Program-made: the position numbers and the translations under genes
Notes under the pieces: model-generated
Seen by the model: only the letters and a program-made list of their open reading frames with translations
What the model was told of the DNA's origin: nothing
Databases searched by the model: none
Assembly (NCBI RefSeq): GCF_025215495.1
Contig: NZ_CP104302.1
Coordinates: 620,001-684,000, forward strand
Reading direction: 5' to 3'
DNA: 64,000 nucleotides
Source: Mycolicibacterium brumae
GTDB lineage: Bacteria; Actinomycetota; Actinomycetes; Mycobacteriales; Mycobacteriaceae
Part shown: piece by piece, positions 4,391-62,901 of the stretch
Numbering within the stretch: the first letter of the stretch is position 1
Layout: the number at the start of each line of letters is the position of its first letter

Positions 4391-4849
4391 ATGACCAGCA
4401 TCCAGATTCTAGCCCCGGTGCCGGGAGTCGCCGTGGCGCTGGCCGACGTCCCGGATCCGGTGTTCTCCCAGGGCATGGTCGGCTGGGGCGCCGCGGTCAA
4501 CCCGCCGCCGGGGCCGGTCGACGCGGTGGCGCCGGTCGGCGGCAAACTGTTCAAGCTGATGCCGCACGCCTATGTGGTGATGACTCCGGACGGGGTCGGC
4601 GTGCTCACCCACCTCGGGCTGGACACCGTGAAGCTCAACGGCGAAGGCTTCATCGCGTTGGCCGCCGAGGGCGACGAGGTGGCTGCCGGCCAGCCGCTGA
4701 TGGTCTACGACGTGCCCGCCGTGACGGCCGCCGGGTACAACCCGATCGCCCTGGTTGTGGTGATGGACGAGCGTGACCCGAACAGCGTCACCGGAGTCGC
4801 CAGCGGTGAAATTGACGGCGGCGGTGTCCTTTTCACCGTGAGCCGCTGA
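4391..4849 (+). CDS. crr: PTS EIIA component, glucose family (Crr-like)
   Basis: Cytosolic EIIA that accepts phosphate from HPr and passes it to C462 of the divergent EIICB. About 152 aa with the two active-site histidines H59 (LMPHAYV) and H74 (LTHLGLD), spaced as H75/H90 in E. coli EIIA-Glc; H74 is the phosphorylated one. An upstream in-frame GTG at 4382 exists, but ATG 4391 has a GAAGGA ribosome site about 9 nt before it. The stop overlaps the nagB start by one base (TGATG), indicating an operon. Confidence 0.9.
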   Translation: MTSIQILAPVPGVAVALADVPDPVFSQGMVGWGAAVNPPPGPVDAVAPVGGKLFKLMPHAYVVMTPDGVGVLTHLGLDTVKLNGEGFIALAAEGDEVAAGQPLMVYDVPAVTAAGYNPIALVVVMDERDPNSVTGVASGEIDGGGVLFTVSR

Positions 4850-54168: not shown

Positions 54169-54855
54169 GTGCGAATTCTTGTCGTTGACGACGACCGAGC
54201 GGTCCGTGAGTCCCTACGTCGATCCCTGTCCTTCAACGGCTATTCGGTCTCGCTGGCCGAAGACGGCCAGGAGGCGCTGGAGGCCATCACCGCGGAGCGG
54301 CCCGACGCCGTCGTGCTGGATGTGATGATGCCCCGGCTGGACGGCCTCGAGGTCTGCCGCCGACTCCGCAGCACCGGTGACGATCTGCCGATCCTGGTGC
54401 TGACCGCGCGGGATTCGGTGTCCGAGCGGGTCGCCGGCCTGGACGCCGGCGCCGACGACTATCTGCCCAAGCCCTTCGCGCTGGAAGAACTTCTGGCGCG
54501 GATGCGGGCGCTGCTGCGGCGCACCACCGCCACCGACACCGGCGACAACGCCGCGATGTCCTTCGGCGATCTGACTCTGGACCCGGTGACCCGCGAGGTC
54601 ACCCGCGGGGAGCGCCAGATCAGCCTGACCCGCACCGAGTTCGCGCTGCTGGAGATGCTGATCGCGAACCCGCGCCGGGTGCTGACCCGGAGCCGCATCC
54701 TGGAGGAGGTGTGGGGCTTCGATTTCCCCACGTCGGGAAATGCGTTGGAGGTCTACGTCGGCTATCTTCGCCGGAAGACCGAAGCGGAGGGGGAGCCGCG
54801 ATTGATTCACACGGTGCGCGGGGTGGGTTACGTGCTGCGTGAAACTCCGCCGTGA
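54169..54855 (+). CDS. mprA: Response regulator MprA
   Basis: OmpR/PhoB-class regulator of the envelope stress response, 228 aa from GTG 54169 ([19 protein letters not shown]). Receiver with D51 (VVLDVMMP) and K100 (DYLPKPFAL); winged-helix DNA-binding domain with [20 protein letters not shown] and [13 protein letters not shown]. In M. tuberculosis MprA controls sigE, sigB and pepD. Overlaps mprB by 4 bp (GTGA). Confidence 0.95.
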
Positions 54856-56435
54856 GCCCGCGGCTGCCGTGGCGGCGCGCCGAGCGTGAACAGGGCCCGC
54901 CCGCCGCTGCGTCGCTCTCATTGCGCTGGCGGGTGATGGCGCTGGCCATGTCGATGGTCGTCATGGCCTTCGTGCTGATCAGCCTGGCGGTTTACGCCGT
55001 GGTCGGCGCCGCGCTTTCCGACGACGTCAACGATCAGTTGCTCAGTCGGGCCCAATTGCTGATCGCGAGTGGGTCGTTGGCCGCCGATCCCGGCAAGGCC
55101 ATCGAGGGCACCGCCTACTCCGACGTGAACGCCATGCTGATCAACCCCGGTCGTTCGGTCTACTCCACCAACCAGGAGGGTCAGACCCTGCCGATCGGGG
55201 AGCAGGAGAAGCGGGTCATCACCGGCGAGCTGTTCATGTCCCGGCGCACCGCCGGGAACCAGCGGGTGCTGGCGATCCATCTCAGCAACGGCAGCACGCT
55301 GCTGATCTCCAAGAGCCTCGCGCCCACCCAGGCGGTGATGAACCGGCTGCGCTGGGTGCTGCTCGGCGTGGGCGGCGTCGGGCTGGTGATCGCCGCCATC
55401 GCCGGTGGCGCGGTGACCCGAACCGGTCTCAAACCAGTCGGCCGGTTGACCCGGGCCGCCGAACGGGTCGCCCGCACCGACGACCTGCGCCCGATCCCGG
55501 TGTACGGCACCGACGAGCTGGCGCGGCTGACCTCGTCGTTCAACATGATGTTGCGCGCGCTGGCGGAGTCCCGGGAACGCCAGGCCCGGTTGGTCGCCGA
55601 CGCCGGCCACGAACTGAAGACGCCGCTGACCTCGTTGCGCACCAATGTCGAGCTGCTGATGGCCGCTCACGCGCCCGGAGCCCCGCAGATCGCCGAATCC
55701 GACCTCGTCGAGCTGCGCGCGGACGTGATCGCCCAGATCGAGGAACTCTCCACCCTGGTCGGAGACCTGGTCGATCTCGCCCGCGACGACGCCGGCGGAG
55801 TGGTCAACGACACCGTCGACGTGCCGGAGCTGATCGACCGTTGCCTGGAGCGGATCCGCCGCCGCCGCAACGACGTCGAATTCGACGTCTCGGTCATTCC
55901 GTGGCAGATGTTCGGCGACTCCGCCGGGTTGTCCCGCGCGGTGCTGAACCTGCTGGACAACGCCGCCAAATGGAGCCCGCCCGGCGGGCGGGTCACCGTG
56001 GATCTGCACCGCTACGACGCGGCCAACGCCGAACTGGTGGTCGCCGACCGGGGCCCGGGCATTCCCGCGGACGAACGACGGCTGGTGTTCGAGCGGTTCT
56101 ACCGATCGGACGCCGCGCGCGCGATGCCCGGCTCCGGCCTGGGCCTGGCGATCGTCAAACAGGTGGTGCTCAAACACGGCGGCGCGTTGCGCGTCGCCGA
56201 GACCTCGCCCGGCGCGAACGCGCCCGGCACCTCCTTCTACGTGCTGCTGCCCGGTGAGCCGGGCCTGCCGCCTGCGGAGGTCGACGAGTTCGACGTCGAC
56301 CGCGACACGGTGATCTCGGCTACTGATGAGTGGATCGGGAACGCCCACAATGAGAAGCACGTTGAATCAGTGGCAAAACCACCGGGCGCGCCGAACGTCA
56401 TCTCAGTCGACTCTAAGCAGTCGTCGGCAGATTGA
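54852..56435 (+). CDS. mprB: Sensor histidine kinase MprB
   Basis: 527 aa. TM1 at about residues 28-52, an extracytoplasmic domain of about 110 residues, TM2 at about 168-188, then HAMP and HisKA ([16 protein letters not shown], phospho-acceptor H253) and HATPase ([33 protein letters not shown]). Partner of MprA; the C-terminal about 45 residues are variable. Its 3' end contains the MprA box for pepD. Confidence 0.95.
56401..56419 (+). promoter_or_regulatory. MprA box upstream of pepD, inside the mprB 3' end
   Basis: TCTCAGTCGACTCTAAGCA: the two half-sites (TCTCAG and TCTAAG) have the same 11-bp period as the box before mprA. It ends 67 bp before the pepD start, so pepD may be induced separately. 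Confidence 0.55.
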
Positions 56436-56485
56436 TCGGCAACGCCACACACGCGCTGCGCGCAGAGGATCGGGAGACCAGGACG

Positions 56486-57865
56486 ATGACCCACGACCCG
56501 CGGTATTCCGCGCCCCAGACCCGCACCGGCGCGTCACCGATATACAACACCGGCGCGCACCAGCAGCCGGGCTACACCACGGGCGCCCAACAGCAGCCCG
56601 GCTACCAGACCGGCGCGCACCAGCGCCCCGGCTACGACTGGCGCTACGCCACCCAGCAGCCCGGTCAGCACACGCAACAGAGCGCGGCCTATGACCCGTA
56701 CCGGCGTCAGCCCACACCCGCGCCGGCCCAGCCCGCGCCGAAGTCGCGCCGCGGCCGCACCGCCGGGCTGTGGGCCGGCGCGCTGGCCATCGCGATGGTT
56801 TCGGCCGGCATCGGCGGCGGCGTCGCCGTGCTGGCGACCCCGGACCAGGCCACCTCCATCAGCAACGCGGTGGCGCCGGATTCCCCGGGCGCGACGGAGA
56901 CCCCGACGCAGCCCGCGGTGAGCCTGCCGGTCGGGTCCCGAGAGCAGGTCGCCGCCAAGGTGGTGCCCTCGGTGGTCAAGCTGCAGTCCAACTACGGCCG
57001 GGCCGAAGGGGAGGGGTCGGGTGTCATCCTGACCGCCGACGGCCTGATCCTCACCAACAACCACGTGGTCGCCGGCGACGGCGGCGCGGCCACCAGCGGT
57101 GATCCGGAACGGACGGTGGCCTTCGCCGACGGCCGCACCGCTCCCTTCACCATCGTGGGCGCCGACCCGGCCAGTGACATCGCGGTGGTCCGCGCCGACG
57201 GGGTCACCGACCTCACGCCGATCACCATCGGCCGTTCCGCCGACCTGCGGGTTGGTCAGGACGTGGTGGCCGTCGGTTCGCCGCTGGGCCTGGAGGGCAC
57301 CGTGACCACCGGAATCGTCAGCGCGCTGAATCGCCCGGTGGCCGCCTCCGGGGACGCCAATAACCAGAACACCGTGCTCGACGCGATTCAGACCGACGCC
57401 GCGATCAACCCGGGTAACTCCGGTGGCGCGCTGGTCAACATGAATGGCGAGCTGGTCGGCATCAACTCGGCGATCGCCACCCTGGGCGCGTCTTCCCAGC
57501 AGGGCCAGGGTGGTTCGATCGGTCTGGGCTTCGCGATCCCGGTGGACCAGGCAAAGCGCATCGCCGACGAACTGATCGCCACCGGCAAGGCCACCCACGC
57601 CTCGCTGGGTGTGCAGGTCAGCCACGACCGCGCGGTCAGTGGCGCCAAGGTCATGGAAGTGGTCGCCGGCGGCGCCGCGGACAAGGCCGGCCTGCCGGCC
57701 GGGGTGATCATCACCAAGCTCGACGACCGCACCATCACCACTTCGGACGCGCTGGTGGCGGCGGTGCGCTCCCGGGCGCCCGGGGACGAGGTCACACTGA
57801 CCTACTCCGAACCGGGTGGCCAGCCGCAGACCCTGAAGGTCACTCTCGGGCAGACGCAGAAATGA
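56486..57865 (+). CDS. pepD: HtrA-type serine protease PepD
   Basis: 459 aa from ATG 56486 (MTHDPRYS); an upstream TTG at 56432 would add residues before the homologous start. A cytosolic N-terminal tail has three 10-residue repeats (TGAHQQPGYT type, 56549-56638), then a single TM (about residues 92-114) and a trypsin-like domain. Catalytic residues: NNHVVAGDGG (His), ASDIAVVR (Asp), NPGNSGGALV (Ser). A PDZ domain (VVAGGAADKAGLPAGVIIT) closes the protein. Periplasmic quality control; in M. tuberculosis controlled by MprAB. Confidence 0.94.
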   Translation: MTHDPRYSAPQTRTGASPIYNTGAHQQPGYTTGAQQQPGYQTGAHQRPGYDWRYATQQPGQHTQQSAAYDPYRRQPTPAPAQPAPKSRRGRTAGLWAGALAIAMVSAGIGGGVAVLATPDQATSISNAVAPDSPGATETPTQPAVSLPVGSREQVAAKVVPSVVKLQSNYGRAEGEGSGVILTADGLILTNNHVVAGDGGAATSGDPERTVAFADGRTAPFTIVGADPASDIAVVRADGVTDLTPITIGRSADLRVGQDVVAVGSPLGLEGTVTTGIVSALNRPVAASGDANNQNTVLDAIQTDAAINPGNSGGALVNMNGELVGINSAIATLGASSQQGQGGSIGLGFAIPVDQAKRIADELIATGKATHASLGVQVSHDRAVSGAKVMEVVAGGAADKAGLPAGVIITKLDDRTITTSDALVAAVRSRAPGDEVTLTYSEPGGQPQTLKVTLGQTQK

Positions 57866-57918
57866 CCACGCTGGGCAATGTGACGACCGTGTCGGTGGAC
57901 CCATATACGGTGGCACCC

Positions 57919-58413
57919 ATGGAACAGCCCACGAGCGTTGTCGGACGGGCCCTGGTGGTCGTCGTCGACGACCGCACCGCCCATGGCGAAGAAGACCACA
58001 GCGGCCCCTTGGTCACCGAACTGCTCACCGAAGCCGGGTTCGTCGTCGACGGTGTGCTGGTGGTCTCCGCGGACGAGGTGGAGATCCGCAATGCCCTCAA
58101 CACCGCGGTGATCGGCGGTGTCGATCTGGTGGTGTCGGTCGGCGGCACCGGTGTCACGCCGCGTGATGTCACCCCGGAGGCCACCAGCGAACTGCTGGAT
58201 CTGGAGTTGCTGGGCATCGCCGAGGCGCTGCGCGCCTCCGGCTTGGCGGCCGGCATCCACGATGCGGCGTTGTCCCGCGGGCTGGCCGGGATTTCCGGTT
58301 CGACGCTGGTGGTGAACCTGCCCGGTTCGCGGCCGGCGGTGCGGGACGGGATGGCGACGCTCAACCCGCTCGCCGCCGCGGTGATCGTCCAGCTGTCGAC
58401 GCTCGAGATCTGA
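57919..58413 (+). CDS. moaB2: Molybdopterin adenylyltransferase-like protein MoaB2
   Basis: MogA/MoaB-fold protein, 164 aa from ATG 57919 (MEQPTSVVGRA). TACGGT at 57906-57911 ends 7 nt upstream, the leaderless pattern; an in-frame ATG at 57862 overlapping pepD is the alternative. Motif VGGTGVTPRDVTPEAT binds the pterin phosphate; SGSTLVVNLPGSRPAV is the other conserved patch. Follows pepD as in Rv0983-Rv0984. Confidence 0.92.
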   Translation: MEQPTSVVGRALVVVVDDRTAHGEEDHSGPLVTELLTEAGFVVDGVLVVSADEVEIRNALNTAVIGGVDLVVSVGGTGVTPRDVTPEATSELLDLELLGIAEALRASGLAAGIHDAALSRGLAGISGSTLVVNLPGSRPAVRDGMATLNPLAAAVIVQLSTLEI

Positions 58414-58720: not shown

Positions 58721-59010
58721 TCAGTAACCAGTGTTTCTGCTGGGACTGTGCTGGAGATTTGCTCACCAACATTTTTCCGACGACTCGCGCGACGCGACCG
58801 GCCGTGGGCGCACCCAGGTCGGACACTTCGCCGTGGTGGCGGCGACTCCTCACCACGGTCAGCAAACTTCTCGGCACGGCAGACATAAGTTGTGATTTGT
58901 CCCGTACGCGTTGCCGGGTCGAATGGCCCCCGTTATGTTCCTTTCGACATCGACGATGAGGTCAAGTACGAGCGTCCCATCGGGAATCGCCAAAAGGCCG
59001 CTCAGGTGCG

Positions 59011-59101: not shown

Positions 59102-59758
59102 ATGAAGGTGCTAGCGCGGATTTTCCTCACGATGGCGCTGGCCATCGGCGCGTTGTTTGTGGGTACGGGCACGGCCTCGGCGGGTTTGGACAACTCCAAC
59201 ACCCTCGTCGACGGCAAGGGCCGGACCATGGTGATTGAGCAGTGGGACACCTTCCTCAACGGTGTGTTCCCGCTGGACCGCAACCGGCTGACCCGTGAGT
59301 GGTTCCACTCCGGTCGCGCGGTGTTCGACGTCCAGGGCGAGGGCGCCGAGGACTTCGAGGGTGTGCTGGAACTGGGTTACCAGGTCGGCTTCCCCTGGTC
59401 ACTCGGTGTGGGCATCAACTTCAGCTACACCACCCCGAACATCGCGTTCGACGGCTGGGGAGTTAATCCCGATGAGGACGGCGTTATCACCGGCACCGGG
59501 CTGGCGAACAGCATTGTGACCCCCCCGTTGCTTCCCGGTGTGTCGATCTCGGCTGACCTGGGCAACGGCCCGGGCATCCAGGAGGTCGCCACCTTCTCCG
59601 TCGACATCGCCGGCCCGCACGGCGCGGTGGCCGTCTCCAACGCGCACGGCACGGTGACCGGCGCCGCCGGCGGTGTGCTGCTGCGCCCATTCGCCCGTCT
59701 CATCTCCAACGATGGTGACTCGGTGACCACCTACGGCGAGCCCTGGAACATGAACTGA
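59102..59758 (+). CDS. MspA-family outer-membrane porin, copy 1
   Basis: Octameric channel of the mycolic-acid outer membrane for small hydrophilic solutes. 218 aa from ATG 59102; signal peptide residues 1-27 (TGTASA then GLDN), mature 191 aa. Family blocks QWDTFLNGVFPLDRNRLTRE, ELGYQVGFPWSLGVGINFSY, PGVSISADLGNGPGIQEVAT and YGEPWNMN are preserved. The loop corresponding to the MspA constriction (D90/D91) reads FDGWGVNPDEDG: D90 is kept, D91 is Gly, and about seven residues are inserted. A strong terminator follows. Nearly identical copy 2 starts 150 bp after this stop. Confidence 0.94.
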   Translation: MKVLARIFLTMALAIGALFVGTGTASAGLDNSNTLVDGKGRTMVIEQWDTFLNGVFPLDRNRLTREWFHSGRAVFDVQGEGAEDFEGVLELGYQVGFPWSLGVGINFSYTTPNIAFDGWGVNPDEDGVITGTGLANSIVTPPLLPGVSISADLGNGPGIQEVATFSVDIAGPHGAVAVSNAHGTVTGAAGGVLLRPFARLISNDGDSVTTYGEPWNMN

Positions 59759-59770
59759 TCTCTCACGTCA

Positions 59771-59812
59771 AAGAGCGGCGGCGGTGTCGAATTCGACACC
59801 GCCGCCGCTCTT
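59771..59812 (+). terminator. Terminator after porin copy 1
   Basis: Perfect 21-bp inverted repeat with AATT at its centre (AAGAGCGGCGGCGGTGTCG arm) followed by TTTG. It should separate the two porin transcripts. Confidence 0.85.
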
Positions 59813-59908
59813 TTGTGAATGACCTGAAGATCCCATTCTCCGCCGAGCCAGGGCAGTGAAGGTAGGTTAGCCTGCGTTGACGGGCCGCTCACGCATGGAG
59901 AAGGATGG

Positions 59909-60562
59909 ATGAGCCTCGCGCGGATTTTCCTCACGATGGCGCTGGCCATCGGCGCGTTGTTTGTGGGTACGGGCACGGCCTCGGCGGGTTTGGACAACTC
60001 CAACACCCTCGTCGACGGCAAGGGCCGGACCATGGTGATTGAGCAGTGGGACACCTTCCTCAACGGTGTGTTCCCGCTGGACCGCAACCGGCTGACCCGT
60101 GAGTGGTTCCACTCCGGTCGCGCGGTGTTCGACGTCCAGGGCGAGGGCGCTGAGGACTTCGAGGGTGTGCTGGAACTGGGTTACCAGGTCGGCTTCCCCT
60201 GGTCACTCGGTGTGGGCATCAACTTCTCCTACACCACCCCGAACATCGCGTTCGACGGCTGGGGAGTTGATCCCGATGAGGACGGCGTTATCACCGGCAC
60301 CGGGCTGGCGAACAGCATTGTGACCCCCCCGTTGCTTCCCGGTGTGTCGATCTCGGCTGACCTGGGCAACGGCCCCGGCATCCAGGAGATCGCCACCTTC
60401 TCCGTCGATATCGCCGGCCCGCACGGCGCGGTGGCCGTCTCCAACGCGCACGGCACGGTGACCGGCGCCGCCGGCGGTGTGCTGCTTCGTCCGTACGCCC
60501 GTCTCATCTCCAACGATGGTGACTCGGTGACCACCTACGGCGAGCCCTGGAACATGAACTGA
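59909..60562 (+). CDS. MspA-family outer-membrane porin, copy 2
   Basis: 217 aa. The mature protein differs from copy 1 at only three positions: N95D in the constriction loop (FDGWGVDPDEDG), V to I in IQE-ATF, and F to Y in RP-ARL. The N-terminus MSLARIF replaces MKVLARIF. Own short upstream region with GAGAAGG ribosome site. The coding DNA is almost the same over its length, so this is a recent tandem duplication or gene conversion. Convergent with the SulP gene (20-bp gap). Confidence 0.94.
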   Translation: MSLARIFLTMALAIGALFVGTGTASAGLDNSNTLVDGKGRTMVIEQWDTFLNGVFPLDRNRLTREWFHSGRAVFDVQGEGAEDFEGVLELGYQVGFPWSLGVGINFSYTTPNIAFDGWGVDPDEDGVITGTGLANSIVTPPLLPGVSISADLGNGPGIQEIATFSVDIAGPHGAVAVSNAHGTVTGAAGGVLLRPYARLISNDGDSVTTYGEPWNMN

Positions 60563-60582
60563 TCTCGCTCTGTGTGTCCCGA

Positions 60583-62901
60583 CTAGCGCGCGCCCTGGGA
60601 GATCAGCTCGCCGTTGAGCGCGGCGGACGCGAGCGCGACATCGTCACGGTCTGCCTGCGTCGATGGATCGATGATGTCGTCGGTGGTGATCTGCAGCACC
60701 CGCCCGGTCGGAATGTCGAAGAACAACCCGAGAACGTCGCGGCCGGCCCCGCCGTCGTTGACGGCGCGGTGGGTGCGCAGCGTGTGCGCCTGCAGCGCCA
60801 CATTCACCATGGCCAGCTGGTCGATGATGCCGAAGCCCCGGGCTGCCGCGGCCTGCGCAACAGGGTGCCCGGCCAGCAGCGCGTCCCGAGAGGGCTTGGC
60901 GTACTCGATCCAGTCCATCACCGCCGATGCGCCGCCGCCGCCGGTGTGCTCGCCGCCGCCGTGCCAAAGCGCGTGCATCGCGCCGCAGCCGGAGTGCCCG
61001 CACACGATCAGGGTGTCGACACCCAACTCGCCGATCGCGAACTCCAGGGCCGCCTCCACCGACGGGTCGGAGCCCTCCCGTGGCACGAGGTTGCCGACAT
61101 TGCGGATGGTGAACAGGTCACCGGGGCCGGTGCCGGTGATGAGGTTCGGCACCACCCGGGAATCCGCGCAGGTCAGGAAGACGGCGTGCGGGTCCTGGCC
61201 GCCGCTGAGCTTGTCCAGGTGCGGCCGCAAGGCGGAGGCGTGCTTGCGGTGGTAGCGGTCGATGCCGGACAACACCAGATCCGTGCCGCTTTTCCCGTCC
61301 CCGTTGCACTGCTTGGCGTTGTCGGCCAGCGGCGCCAGCTCACGCGCCAGCGCGACATTGGTGTGCCGGCGTGGGGGAGCGGTGGCCGCGGCTTCCAGCA
61401 CCGCCGCGCCGAGCTCGTCGACGTGCACCACACCGCCGCCGGCCTGGTACTGCCGCCGCCAGTCGTTGATGACCTCGAACGCGGCGTGGTCGATGAAGTC
61501 GACGGTGATCTCCACGTTGACCTCGGCGCCCGGCGGGATGGAGGCCAGGGTCCGGGTGAGCCGCGGCAGCGAAAGGAAGCTCGCCGCGCCTTCGACGACG
61601 ACCTGCCAGCGCCCGTCACCGAGCTCCTCGGCCTGCACCGAGGCGCGCACCGCACGCCACACCACCAGCGCGATCGCGACCAGCAGGCCCAGCGCCACGC
61701 CTTCGAGCAGGTTGATGAAGAGCACGCCCGCGACGGTCACCAGGTAGACCACCAGGTCACCGGTCTTGTGGGCGAGCCGAACGTGGGCCATCTTGACCAG
61801 CTGAATGCCGATCACGATGAGCAACCCGGCCAGTGCGGCACGCGGAATCTGCTGGATCCCGGTGCCGAAGAAGGTCGCGAACACCAGCACCCAGATGCCG
61901 TGCATGATCGTGGAGGCGCGGCTCTTCGCGCCGGCGGTGACGTTGGTGGCGCTGCGGACGATGACGCCGGTCACCGGGAGTCCGCCGAGCATGCCGGACA
62001 CCGTGTTCGCGGCGCCCTGGCCGATCATCTCCCGGTTGAGGTCCGATCGGGGGCCGTCGTGCATCTTGTCCACGGCCACCGCCGACAGCAGGGACTCCAC
62101 GCTGGCGATCATGGCGATGGTCAGCACGCCACCGATGAAGGCCAGCCACATTCCGGACTCCGGCAGGGTCGGCAAGCCGATGGCGTCGAACAACGAGCCG
62201 CTCATATCGAGGCGCTCCACCGACAGCGGCGCGATCAGGGACAGCACGGTGGCCAGCAGGATGGCGACCAGGGCGCCGGGGATCTTCCGCAGCCGTTCCG
62301 GGGTGTACTTCCAGAGCAGCATGACCGCGATGACGATCACGCCGACCAGCACGTCGGCGGGATGCAGGTTGGCGATCGCCGAGGGCAGACTCACCAGGTT
62401 GTCCCAGACCCCGGCTGCGGAGGTTCCGCCCAGCACCACGTGCAGCTGCTGGATGGCGATGGTCAGACCGATACCGGCCAGCATCGCGTGCACGACGATC
62501 GGGGAGATCGCCAGCGCGACGGTGGCGACCCGGCTCATGCCGATGATGACCTGCAGGATCCCGGCTCCGACGGTGATCGCCGCGGTGGTGGTCCAGCCGA
62601 AGGTGTTGATCATCTGGGCCACAACCACGGTCAGGCCGGCGGCCGGGCCGCTGGCCAGCAACGGTGACCCGCCCAGCGCGCCGGCGACAATGCCGCCGAC
62701 GATGGCGGCGATCAGGCCGGCCATCAGCGGCGCGCCGGAGGCGACCGCGATGCCCAGTGACAGCGGCAGGGCGACGAGGAACACCACGATGGAGGCGGGG
62801 AGATCGTGGCGGATCAGGACATCCCGGATGTAGCCGCGGGTGTCGGTGGACGCGGAATCGGCGGGTGGCGCGGCAGGCGGCGCGGAGGAGGTGATGCTCA
62901 C
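60583..62901 (-). CDS. SulP-type anion transporter fused to beta-carbonic anhydrase
   Basis: 772 aa. The N-terminal SulP membrane region (about residues 30-440, ten or more helices, ASGPAAGLTVVVAQM) is followed by a STAS-like stretch (about 450-540). A C-terminal beta-class carbonic anhydrase (about 560-760) has zinc ligands in FLTCADSRVVPN (Cys and Asp/Arg dyad) and VCGHSGCGAM (His and Cys). A bicarbonate transporter coupled to CO2 hydration is the natural reading; Rv3273 has the same layout. GTG start at 62901. Confidence 0.93.
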   Translation of the reverse strand: MSITSSAPPAAPPADSASTDTRGYIRDVLIRHDLPASIVVFLVALPLSLGIAVASGAPLMAGLIAAIVGGIVAGALGGSPLLASGPAAGLTVVVAQMINTFGWTTTAAITVGAGILQVIIGMSRVATVALAISPIVVHAMLAGIGLTIAIQQLHVVLGGTSAAGVWDNLVSLPSAIANLHPADVLVGVIVIAVMLLWKYTPERLRKIPGALVAILLATVLSLIAPLSVERLDMSGSLFDAIGLPTLPESGMWLAFIGGVLTIAMIASVESLLSAVAVDKMHDGPRSDLNREMIGQGAANTVSGMLGGLPVTGVIVRSATNVTAGAKSRASTIMHGIWVLVFATFFGTGIQQIPRAALAGLLIVIGIQLVKMAHVRLAHKTGDLVVYLVTVAGVLFINLLEGVALGLLVAIALVVWRAVRASVQAEELGDGRWQVVVEGAASFLSLPRLTRTLASIPPGAEVNVEITVDFIDHAAFEVINDWRRQYQAGGGVVHVDELGAAVLEAAATAPPRRHTNVALARELAPLADNAKQCNGDGKSGTDLVLSGIDRYHRKHASALRPHLDKLSGGQDPHAVFLTCADSRVVPNLITGTGPGDLFTIRNVGNLVPREGSDPSVEAALEFAIGELGVDTLIVCGHSGCGAMHALWHGGGEHTGGGGASAVMDWIEYAKPSRDALLAGHPVAQAAAARGFGIIDQLAMVNVALQAHTLRTHRAVNDGGAGRDVLGLFFDIPTGRVLQITTDDIIDPSTQADRDDVALASAALNGELISQGAR

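Follow-up and report, generated by a model that had tools for sequence, protein, structure and literature searches.

Near-identical tandem MspA-type porins of Mycolicibacterium brumae at a locus with a length-invariant scaffold and a variable constriction loop

Introduction

The MspA-type pore is used in nanopore sensing. Its described relatives in mycobacteria are arranged in several ways. In Mycolicibacterium smegmatis, the four genes for MspA, MspB, MspC and MspD lie at separate places, according to their locus tags (PMC13098993). M. chelonae has a cluster of three, MCH_4691c, MCH_4690c and MCH_4689c, with spacers of 115 and 222 bp, and MCH_4691c is reported to encode the main porin of this species (PMC3989263). 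In the M. abscessus complex, MAB_1080 and MAB_1081 (mmpA and mmpB) form a tandem with a spacer of 463 bp; these copies recombine, as is reported from fusions in patient isolates (PMC8317493, PMC10243398), and porin fusions and deletions in such isolates went with reduced porin expression (PMC10243398). PorM1 and PorM2 of M. fortuitum are separately flanked paralogues, for which the available text of the source describes no tandem (PMC2651896). Paired cell-wall channel subunits are also reported for Nocardia farcinica (NfpA/NfpB) and Rhodococcus ruber (PorA/PorB), the latter pair in tandem (PMC9233653).

We analysed a pair of porin genes in a 64,000-nucleotide stretch of the M. brumae genome (hereafter, the window; positions 620,001 to 684,000 of contig NZ_CP104302.1), together with their counterparts in related genomes. 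An earlier note on this DNA had described near-identical tandem MspA-type porins with a remodelled constriction, and had proposed that a single charged residue in this constriction reflects a retained functional difference between two pores.

Results

The porin pair

Both porin reading frames are intact and stand in tandem on the forward strand (Table 1), downstream of three genes that we take to be mprB, pepD and moaB2. Reading frames and alignment confirm the earlier note's description of two near-identical tandem MspA-type porins whose mature proteins differ at three sites, one of them in the loop: the differences are exactly N95D, V135I and F170Y. The DNA was also said to be highly identical outside these sites. 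This holds in that 11 of the 642 shared bases differ (98.3% identity, aligned from 59117/59921 to the stop codon), with silent differences confined to seven codons (8 bases), including that of Ser81 (AGC in the first copy, TCC in the second). However, the signal peptides (27 and 26 residues by eye, each ending in ASA and followed by GLDN) differ too, at their first residues, and the identity ends sharply at the frame. The shared tract starts within the signal peptide and stops four bases past the stop codon, and outside it, on either side, 17 of 60 bases match. The differences are also clustered, with four of them in the nine bases at 60487-60495 (p 0.002 against random placement, with codon structure ignored).

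Table 1. Features of the porin locus, in coordinates of the window
Feature	Position	Strand	Basis or remark
Sensor histidine kinase gene (mprB-like), kept upstream neighbour	54852..56435	+	gene name putative
HtrA-type serine protease gene (pepD-like), kept upstream neighbour	56432..57865	+	gene name putative
Molybdopterin-binding-domain gene (moaB2-like), kept upstream neighbour	57862..58413	+	gene name putative
Promoter-like element GTTGCCGG-N13-CGTTATGTTCCT (TTGCCG and TATGTT, 17 bases apart), ahead of copy 1	58910..58942	+	conserved; putative function
Porin copy 1, MspA type (N95, V135, F170)	59102..59758	+	218 aa; mature protein from 59183
Tract shared by both copies	59114..59762 (copy 2: 59918-60566)	+	bounded at open reading frame
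Constriction loop of copy 1, IAFDGWGVNPDEDGVITGTGLANSIV (residues 87-112; N95 codon 59465-59467)	59441..59518	+	placed by MspA alignment
Long hairpin between copies, at least 18 consecutive pairs, ending in T	59770..59814	+	folding -44.2 and -40.7 kcal/mol (two cuts)
Porin copy 2, MspA type (D95, I135, Y170)	59909..60562	+	217 aa; mature protein from 59987
Constriction loop of copy 2, as copy 1 but D95 (codon 60269-60271)	60245..60322	+	alignment

Family and fold

That the proteins are of the MspA type is agreed upon by Pfam, NCBIfam, alignment to 1uun and fold. Both copies score above the curated cut-off of the Pfam family MspA (PF09203; 126 bits against 22.9) and above that of the NCBIfam equivalog 'porin MspA' (NF053716; 379 bits for copy 1 and 378 for copy 2, with a cut-off of 280), and copy 2 aligns to MspA in PDB entry 1uun with E 1.3e-90. 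The best fold match of an AlphaFold2 monomer of copy 2, built with 57 sequences, is likewise 1uun (Foldseek E 1.1e-23, TM 0.68-0.70), at an rmsd of 25.6 and with the loop/stem region poorly modelled. The pLDDT of this monomer is below 50 over residues 84-97 and 102-120; because residue 95 lies within such a stretch, the model does not fix its place, nor does it bear on the width of the pore. By analogy with MspA, both proteins would form octameric pores, with residue 95 presumably in the lumen. Both keep Asp90, hence an acidic constriction, while Gly91 replaces Asp91 of MspA.

The locus in relatives and its putative expression elements

We compared the pair with the 80 porin loci, of 198, whose proteins most resembled that of the window, together with nearby genomes, so that the sample leans to close relatives. 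Genes were kept if the mature length was 175-205 residues, and cut or frame-broken genes were left out, which retained 119 genes from 126 tblastn pieces in the named loci. Overlapping loci were skipped before counting; repeated genomes remain, so that the 141 filtered genes comprise 129 distinct sequences.

The porin locus is accompanied by moaB2 in 50 of 78 named loci, and in 49 by pepD as well. A tandem arrangement is ordinary for the moaB2-linked locus and is shared by many relatives: at least two filtered porins lie in the fetched stretch at 24 of these 50 loci (two at 17, three at 3, four at 3 and eight at 1), and one lies at the other 26. The locus with eight, in M. chlorophenolicum (L010, 1188-8198), holds a further, frame-broken porin (1922-2697), and several of its spacers are identical, at about 95 bases. 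In Mycobacterium sp. PSTR-4-N (L012, 4267-4905), the first porin after moaB2 is frame-broken, ending at 4455, and three that pass the filter follow downstream. Directly downstream of the M. brumae porins, on the reverse strand (60583-62901), is a fusion of a sulfate-permease-type transporter with a carbonic anhydrase (772 aa), to which tblastn found no match in the fetched flanks of the named loci.

The promoter-like element upstream of copy 1 occurs once in the window, and with up to 3 mismatches allowed the genome has no other match; in the 150 bases before copy 2 it is absent. Across relatives, it takes the form GTTGCCGG-N12/13-CGTTATGTTCCT and, at up to 2 mismatches, stands at a median of 190 bases before the porin. 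At this threshold, the first porin after moaB2 is preceded by it in 49 of 55 cases, a downstream copy in 12 of 41, and a porin at a locus where no moaB2 was seen in 2 of 38. The first porins that lack it at 2 mismatches are those of L023, L043, L063 (3 mismatches), L067, L069 (4) and L012, although in L012 the true first copy is the frame-broken one, so that the second was counted.

The hairpin between the copies is a probable terminator of copy 1. A simple terminator scan returned three other sites (1.1 expected) and not this hairpin, while an Rfam scan of the region gave six hits, all over the hairpin and all under their gathering scores; a scan of the region for the Sigma-70 consensus gave no site. 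Since copy 2 lacks the element and lies behind a strong hairpin, it is probably expressed less than copy 1, or differently.

Variability of the constriction loop

The constriction loop had been described as longer and more acidic than that of MspA, and so it is: the mature window proteins have 191 residues against 184 in MspA (PDB 1uun), an excess of seven, and the loop includes the acidic run D97-E98-D99. By the same rule, the MspA loop comprises 19 of the 184 residues (by eye from the alignment). The term "remodelled" is apt in that, position by position, D90 is kept, residue 91 is Gly and residue 92 is Trp. However, Gly91, a loop Trp and the length all recur in relatives, and M. smegmatis MspD carries Gly91 too (PMC13098993). 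Because loop length, residue 91 and Trp all vary in this way, we regard the window loop as one sample of a variable loop.

Among 106 distinct mature proteins (the two of the window included), mean entropy is 2.24 bits in columns 88-112 against 0.27 outside. Asp90 is present in 105 of these 106, whereas position 91 is Asp in 41, Gly in 34 (making it the second commonest residue, the window's two included), Gln in 19 and Ala in 11. With Asp at 91 in so few, Asp91 does not define the MspA family. The scaffold is of fixed length: all 141 filtered genes (129 distinct) encode 165 residues outside the loop and 16-35 inside it, as do, for the 165 residues, all 121 genes when only the named loci and the window are counted. 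There are 81 distinct loops among the 141 genes, with 1 to 6 acids each; copy 1 has 4 and copy 2 has 5.

Similar results were obtained with the best 120 of 2362 homologues, which were drawn with the same window query and are thus no independent sample: within these 120, 113 of 114 scorable proteins have 165 residues outside the loop, Asp90 is found in all 115 readable loops, and a loop Trp in 13 of these 115, the window genome's own entry included. Five of the 120 lack the loop-end motif, and one further protein (P0004, discussed below) has no called mature start and is 22 residues short outside the loop. The one protein among the 114 that departs from 165 residues, P0012 of Mycolicibacterium sediminis, has a repeated C-terminal stretch. 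A literature search that covered few subscription papers found no paper on loop hypervariability or on concerted evolution of MspA porins.

Concerted evolution of tandem copies

Seven species (L034, L063, L070, L073, L075, L079 and L080) have a spacer in common, which is 535-555 bp long and can be aligned at 60-85% identity. Since this spacer is orthologous, the duplication in these species is older than their split. Yet the copies within each of them are 95.1-100% identical (third positions 89.6-100%), whereas copies at the same position in different species are 85.4-94.7% identical (66.7-86.3%). Copies that are closer to one another than to their orthologues, despite an old and shared spacer, point to gene conversion. 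In a tree built from the DNA outside the loop, 21 of 26 tandem loci, including that of the window, have all their copies in one monophyletic group; the five exceptions (L008, L009, L010, L012 and L013) are arrays of at least three copies with older subgroups. As judged from these sequence comparisons, the tandem copies at this locus evolve in concert in the relatives.

For the M. brumae pair itself, we infer conversion as well: the identity bounded by the frame and the clustered differences fit conversion, possibly of a mosaic kind. A third template as the origin of the differences at 60487-60495 was considered and rejected, as the codon strings CTTCGTCCGTAC and CTGCGCCCATTC occur in no other gene examined and no donor was found. 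When the window spacer was searched in 147 other genomes of the genus (five candidates scored in each), only fragments of the hairpin matched, and the closest porin DNA in 296 other genomes (two candidates scored per genome) is 79% identical. Because the spacer itself turned up in none of these genomes, conversion in M. brumae is on this evidence indistinguishable from recent duplication. The proposal that the pair reflects recent duplication or gene conversion is supported.

Duplication alone, recent and within the M. brumae lineage, with conversion playing no part, would explain a tandem of such high identity, and would also fit the restriction of this spacer to M. brumae among the genomes of the genus that were searched. 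It is at odds, however, with an identity that stops at either end of the reading frame, where unrelated flanks begin, with the clustering of the differences, and with conversion that can be demonstrated at the same locus in relatives. We therefore consider plain duplication rather unlikely, and take homogenisation by conversion as the preferred reading in what follows.

Residue changes between recent copies

If N95/D95 were a retained functional difference, as the earlier note had it, the pair would form two pores with different cation preference. We looked at changes between recent copies in general. There are 43 adjacent pairs, of which 5 were left out for unequal length, 10 for divergence above 6% and 1 for an unread loop. 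In the remaining 27 (at least 94% DNA identity), residue changes affect 31 of 680 loop sites against 20 of 4347 elsewhere (odds ratio 9.6, p 3e-10; the largest p on leaving out one pair at a time is 3e-8), while purely silent codon changes, 21 in the loop and 130 outside, are proportional to length. Pooled pN/pS (Nei-Gojobori, 28 pairs) is 0.36 in the loop and 0.07 elsewhere. Pairs that share an array depend on one another; the bootstrap for the loop (0.27-0.50) was taken over 23 loci. By this measure, the loop is about five times less constrained than the rest, and the pooled value of 0.36 does not support positive selection; being below 1, it can be explained by relaxed constraint alone. Per silent site, silent changes are also more frequent in the loop than outside, by a factor of 1.7 (0.067 and 0.039, Nei-Gojobori), so a higher mutation rate or an effect of conversion tracts may share in the variability.

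Against this background, the change at residue 95 is not unusual: the tandem copies of L073 also differ by an N to D substitution, N97D, and position 91 has changed repeatedly between copies (L010, L013 and L019). In the window pair, just one of the three residue differences falls in the loop. Given that relatives vary far more in this loop than elsewhere in the protein, N95D is likely to be ordinary, tolerated variation.

Several observations do speak for a functional difference. Gating of MspA and of other barrel pores is governed by the charge in the lumen (PMC12819157), M. smegmatis MspD, which is neutral at 91, has been tied to zinc uptake (PMC13098993), and differences between paralogues concentrate in the loop, the change in L073 among them. 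They are countered by a loop pN/pS below 1, by the range of acids that distinct loops already span and by the missing element before copy 2. Moreover, the subunits of the two copies differ at only three residues, so they would be expected to co-assemble, and, by simple arithmetic, random mixing in equal amounts would leave only 0.8% of octamers pure. The figure of eight extra charges per pore presupposes homo-octamers and is unlikely if, as is probable, the subunits mix. Two pores of distinct cation preference are thus an unlikely explanation, and tolerated variation within a shared pore is the one we favour.

Possible regulatory divergence of the copies

It might instead be regulation that matters, with copy 2 answering another signal, perhaps iron, and the protein difference being incidental. 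Besides the missing element, this idea draws on the best forward-strand match in the window to what we take to be the IdeR consensus, which is found at 59862-59880, 28 bases before copy 2, at 13 of 19 positions, a score that no other forward-strand site of the window attains; among 2000 single-base shuffles of the spacer, 12 attain it. However, seven sites in the genome match the consensus at up to 3 mismatches (the reversed pattern gives none), and the site before copy 2 has six. We regard regulatory divergence as the key to the pair as distinctly unlikely, and retain the reading of a homogenised pair with tolerated loop changes.

Soundness of the assembly

The window genome is a single contig of 3,988,920 bases, 100% complete. 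It presumably corresponds to the PacBio assembly that was published for M. brumae ATCC 51384T, which has a depth of 136x and a read N50 of 6,188 bases (PMC9850167). Reads of this length span the 1.5 kb tandem, so that, provided that the two assemblies are the same, the doubt about repeat collapse is largely met. For three further M. brumae strains, the available text of the same source lists no high-confidence SNP near 679-681 kb, if the same numbering is assumed, and names no partly missing gene as a porin; its SNP list had been cleared of sites in repeats (PMC9850167).

P0004, another protein deposited as M. brumae, has 196 residues and equals copy 1 minus 22 residues, with two substitutions; the combination N95/V135/F170 of copy 1 recurs in it. 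Its shortening (22 residues, or 66 bases) is either a genuine deletion or the result of misassembly at the repeat. Although P0004 illustrates that such repeats can trouble assembly or recombine, an artefactual tandem is very improbable in a single contig with a read N50 above the repeat length in what we take to be the same published assembly (PMC9850167), with distinct flanks and with 11 fixed differences between the copies.

Elsewhere in the genome, the only other PF09203 matches are two distant proteins at 3.43 Mb, which form a second tandem (G000:C1:3431648-3432931, L113). This was considered as a further MspA-type pair and rejected, in that the MspA protein search recovered neither protein.

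Discussion

We consider it quite probable that the genes are a tandem MspA-type pair at the moaB2-linked locus, likely homogenised by conversion within the frame, and that N95/D95 is likely one of many tolerated changes of the loop. Copy 1, with its conserved promoter-like element, would supply most subunits, while copy 2, which lies past a terminator-like hairpin and has no such element, would be expressed less or under other conditions. Subunits of both would then mix in one octameric outer-membrane pore, in which D95 would add a graded 0 to 8 charges per octamer rather than act as a switch. Because lumen charge affects gating in MspA, an effect of D95 is possible in such mixed octamers, but it would be graded.

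The pair itself is of a familiar kind; more interesting is the homogenised scaffold with a free loop across the locus as a whole. A broader suggestion, which is possible but which we offer only tentatively, is that a fixed scaffold of 165 residues carries an exchangeable constriction cassette, and that conversion homogenises the scaffold and spreads loops, so that each species sets the permeability of its outer membrane. Loop length, charge and residue 91 would change freely around an almost invariant Asp90, and paired copies such as N95/D95 would be the raw material from which octamers of mixed composition and finely graded charge arise. Whatever the merit of this suggestion, nature has sampled dozens of constriction loops (the 81 distinct ones counted above) on one length-invariant scaffold, and their conductance and selectivity are directly testable. 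It also matters that near-identical tandem porins recombine, as in M. abscessus patient isolates (PMC10243398).

Comparison with known systems

The M. brumae porins share with MspA, MspB, MspC and MspD of M. smegmatis (PF09203; 1uun) the fold, the 165 non-loop residues (for MspA by eye) and Asp90, and with MspD also Gly91 (PMC13098993). They differ from MspA in the seven additional loop residues with D97-E98-D99, and from the M. smegmatis genes in standing as two tandem copies (PMC13098993). The channels of Nocardia and Rhodococcus also have paired subunits, but NfpA and NfpB need each other to form a channel (PMC9233653), which is not expected of the window pair, and the single filtered porin at 26 of the 50 named moaB2-linked loci argues against an obligate hetero-oligomer of this type. 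PorM1 and PorM2 of M. fortuitum are comparable in that their mature proteins are one residue apart, with flanks unrelated save for 13 bp before the frames, but they are unlike the window pair in their separate flanking (PMC2651896). The M. chelonae genes are clustered as here and encode mature proteins that differ at one to four positions, although there are three copies, about 73% identical to MspA (PMC3989263). The mmpA/mmpB pair of the M. abscessus complex is in tandem as here, with mature proteins 97% identical, and its copies recombine, but the recombination reported is fusion or deletion and not homogenisation (PMC8317493, PMC10243398).
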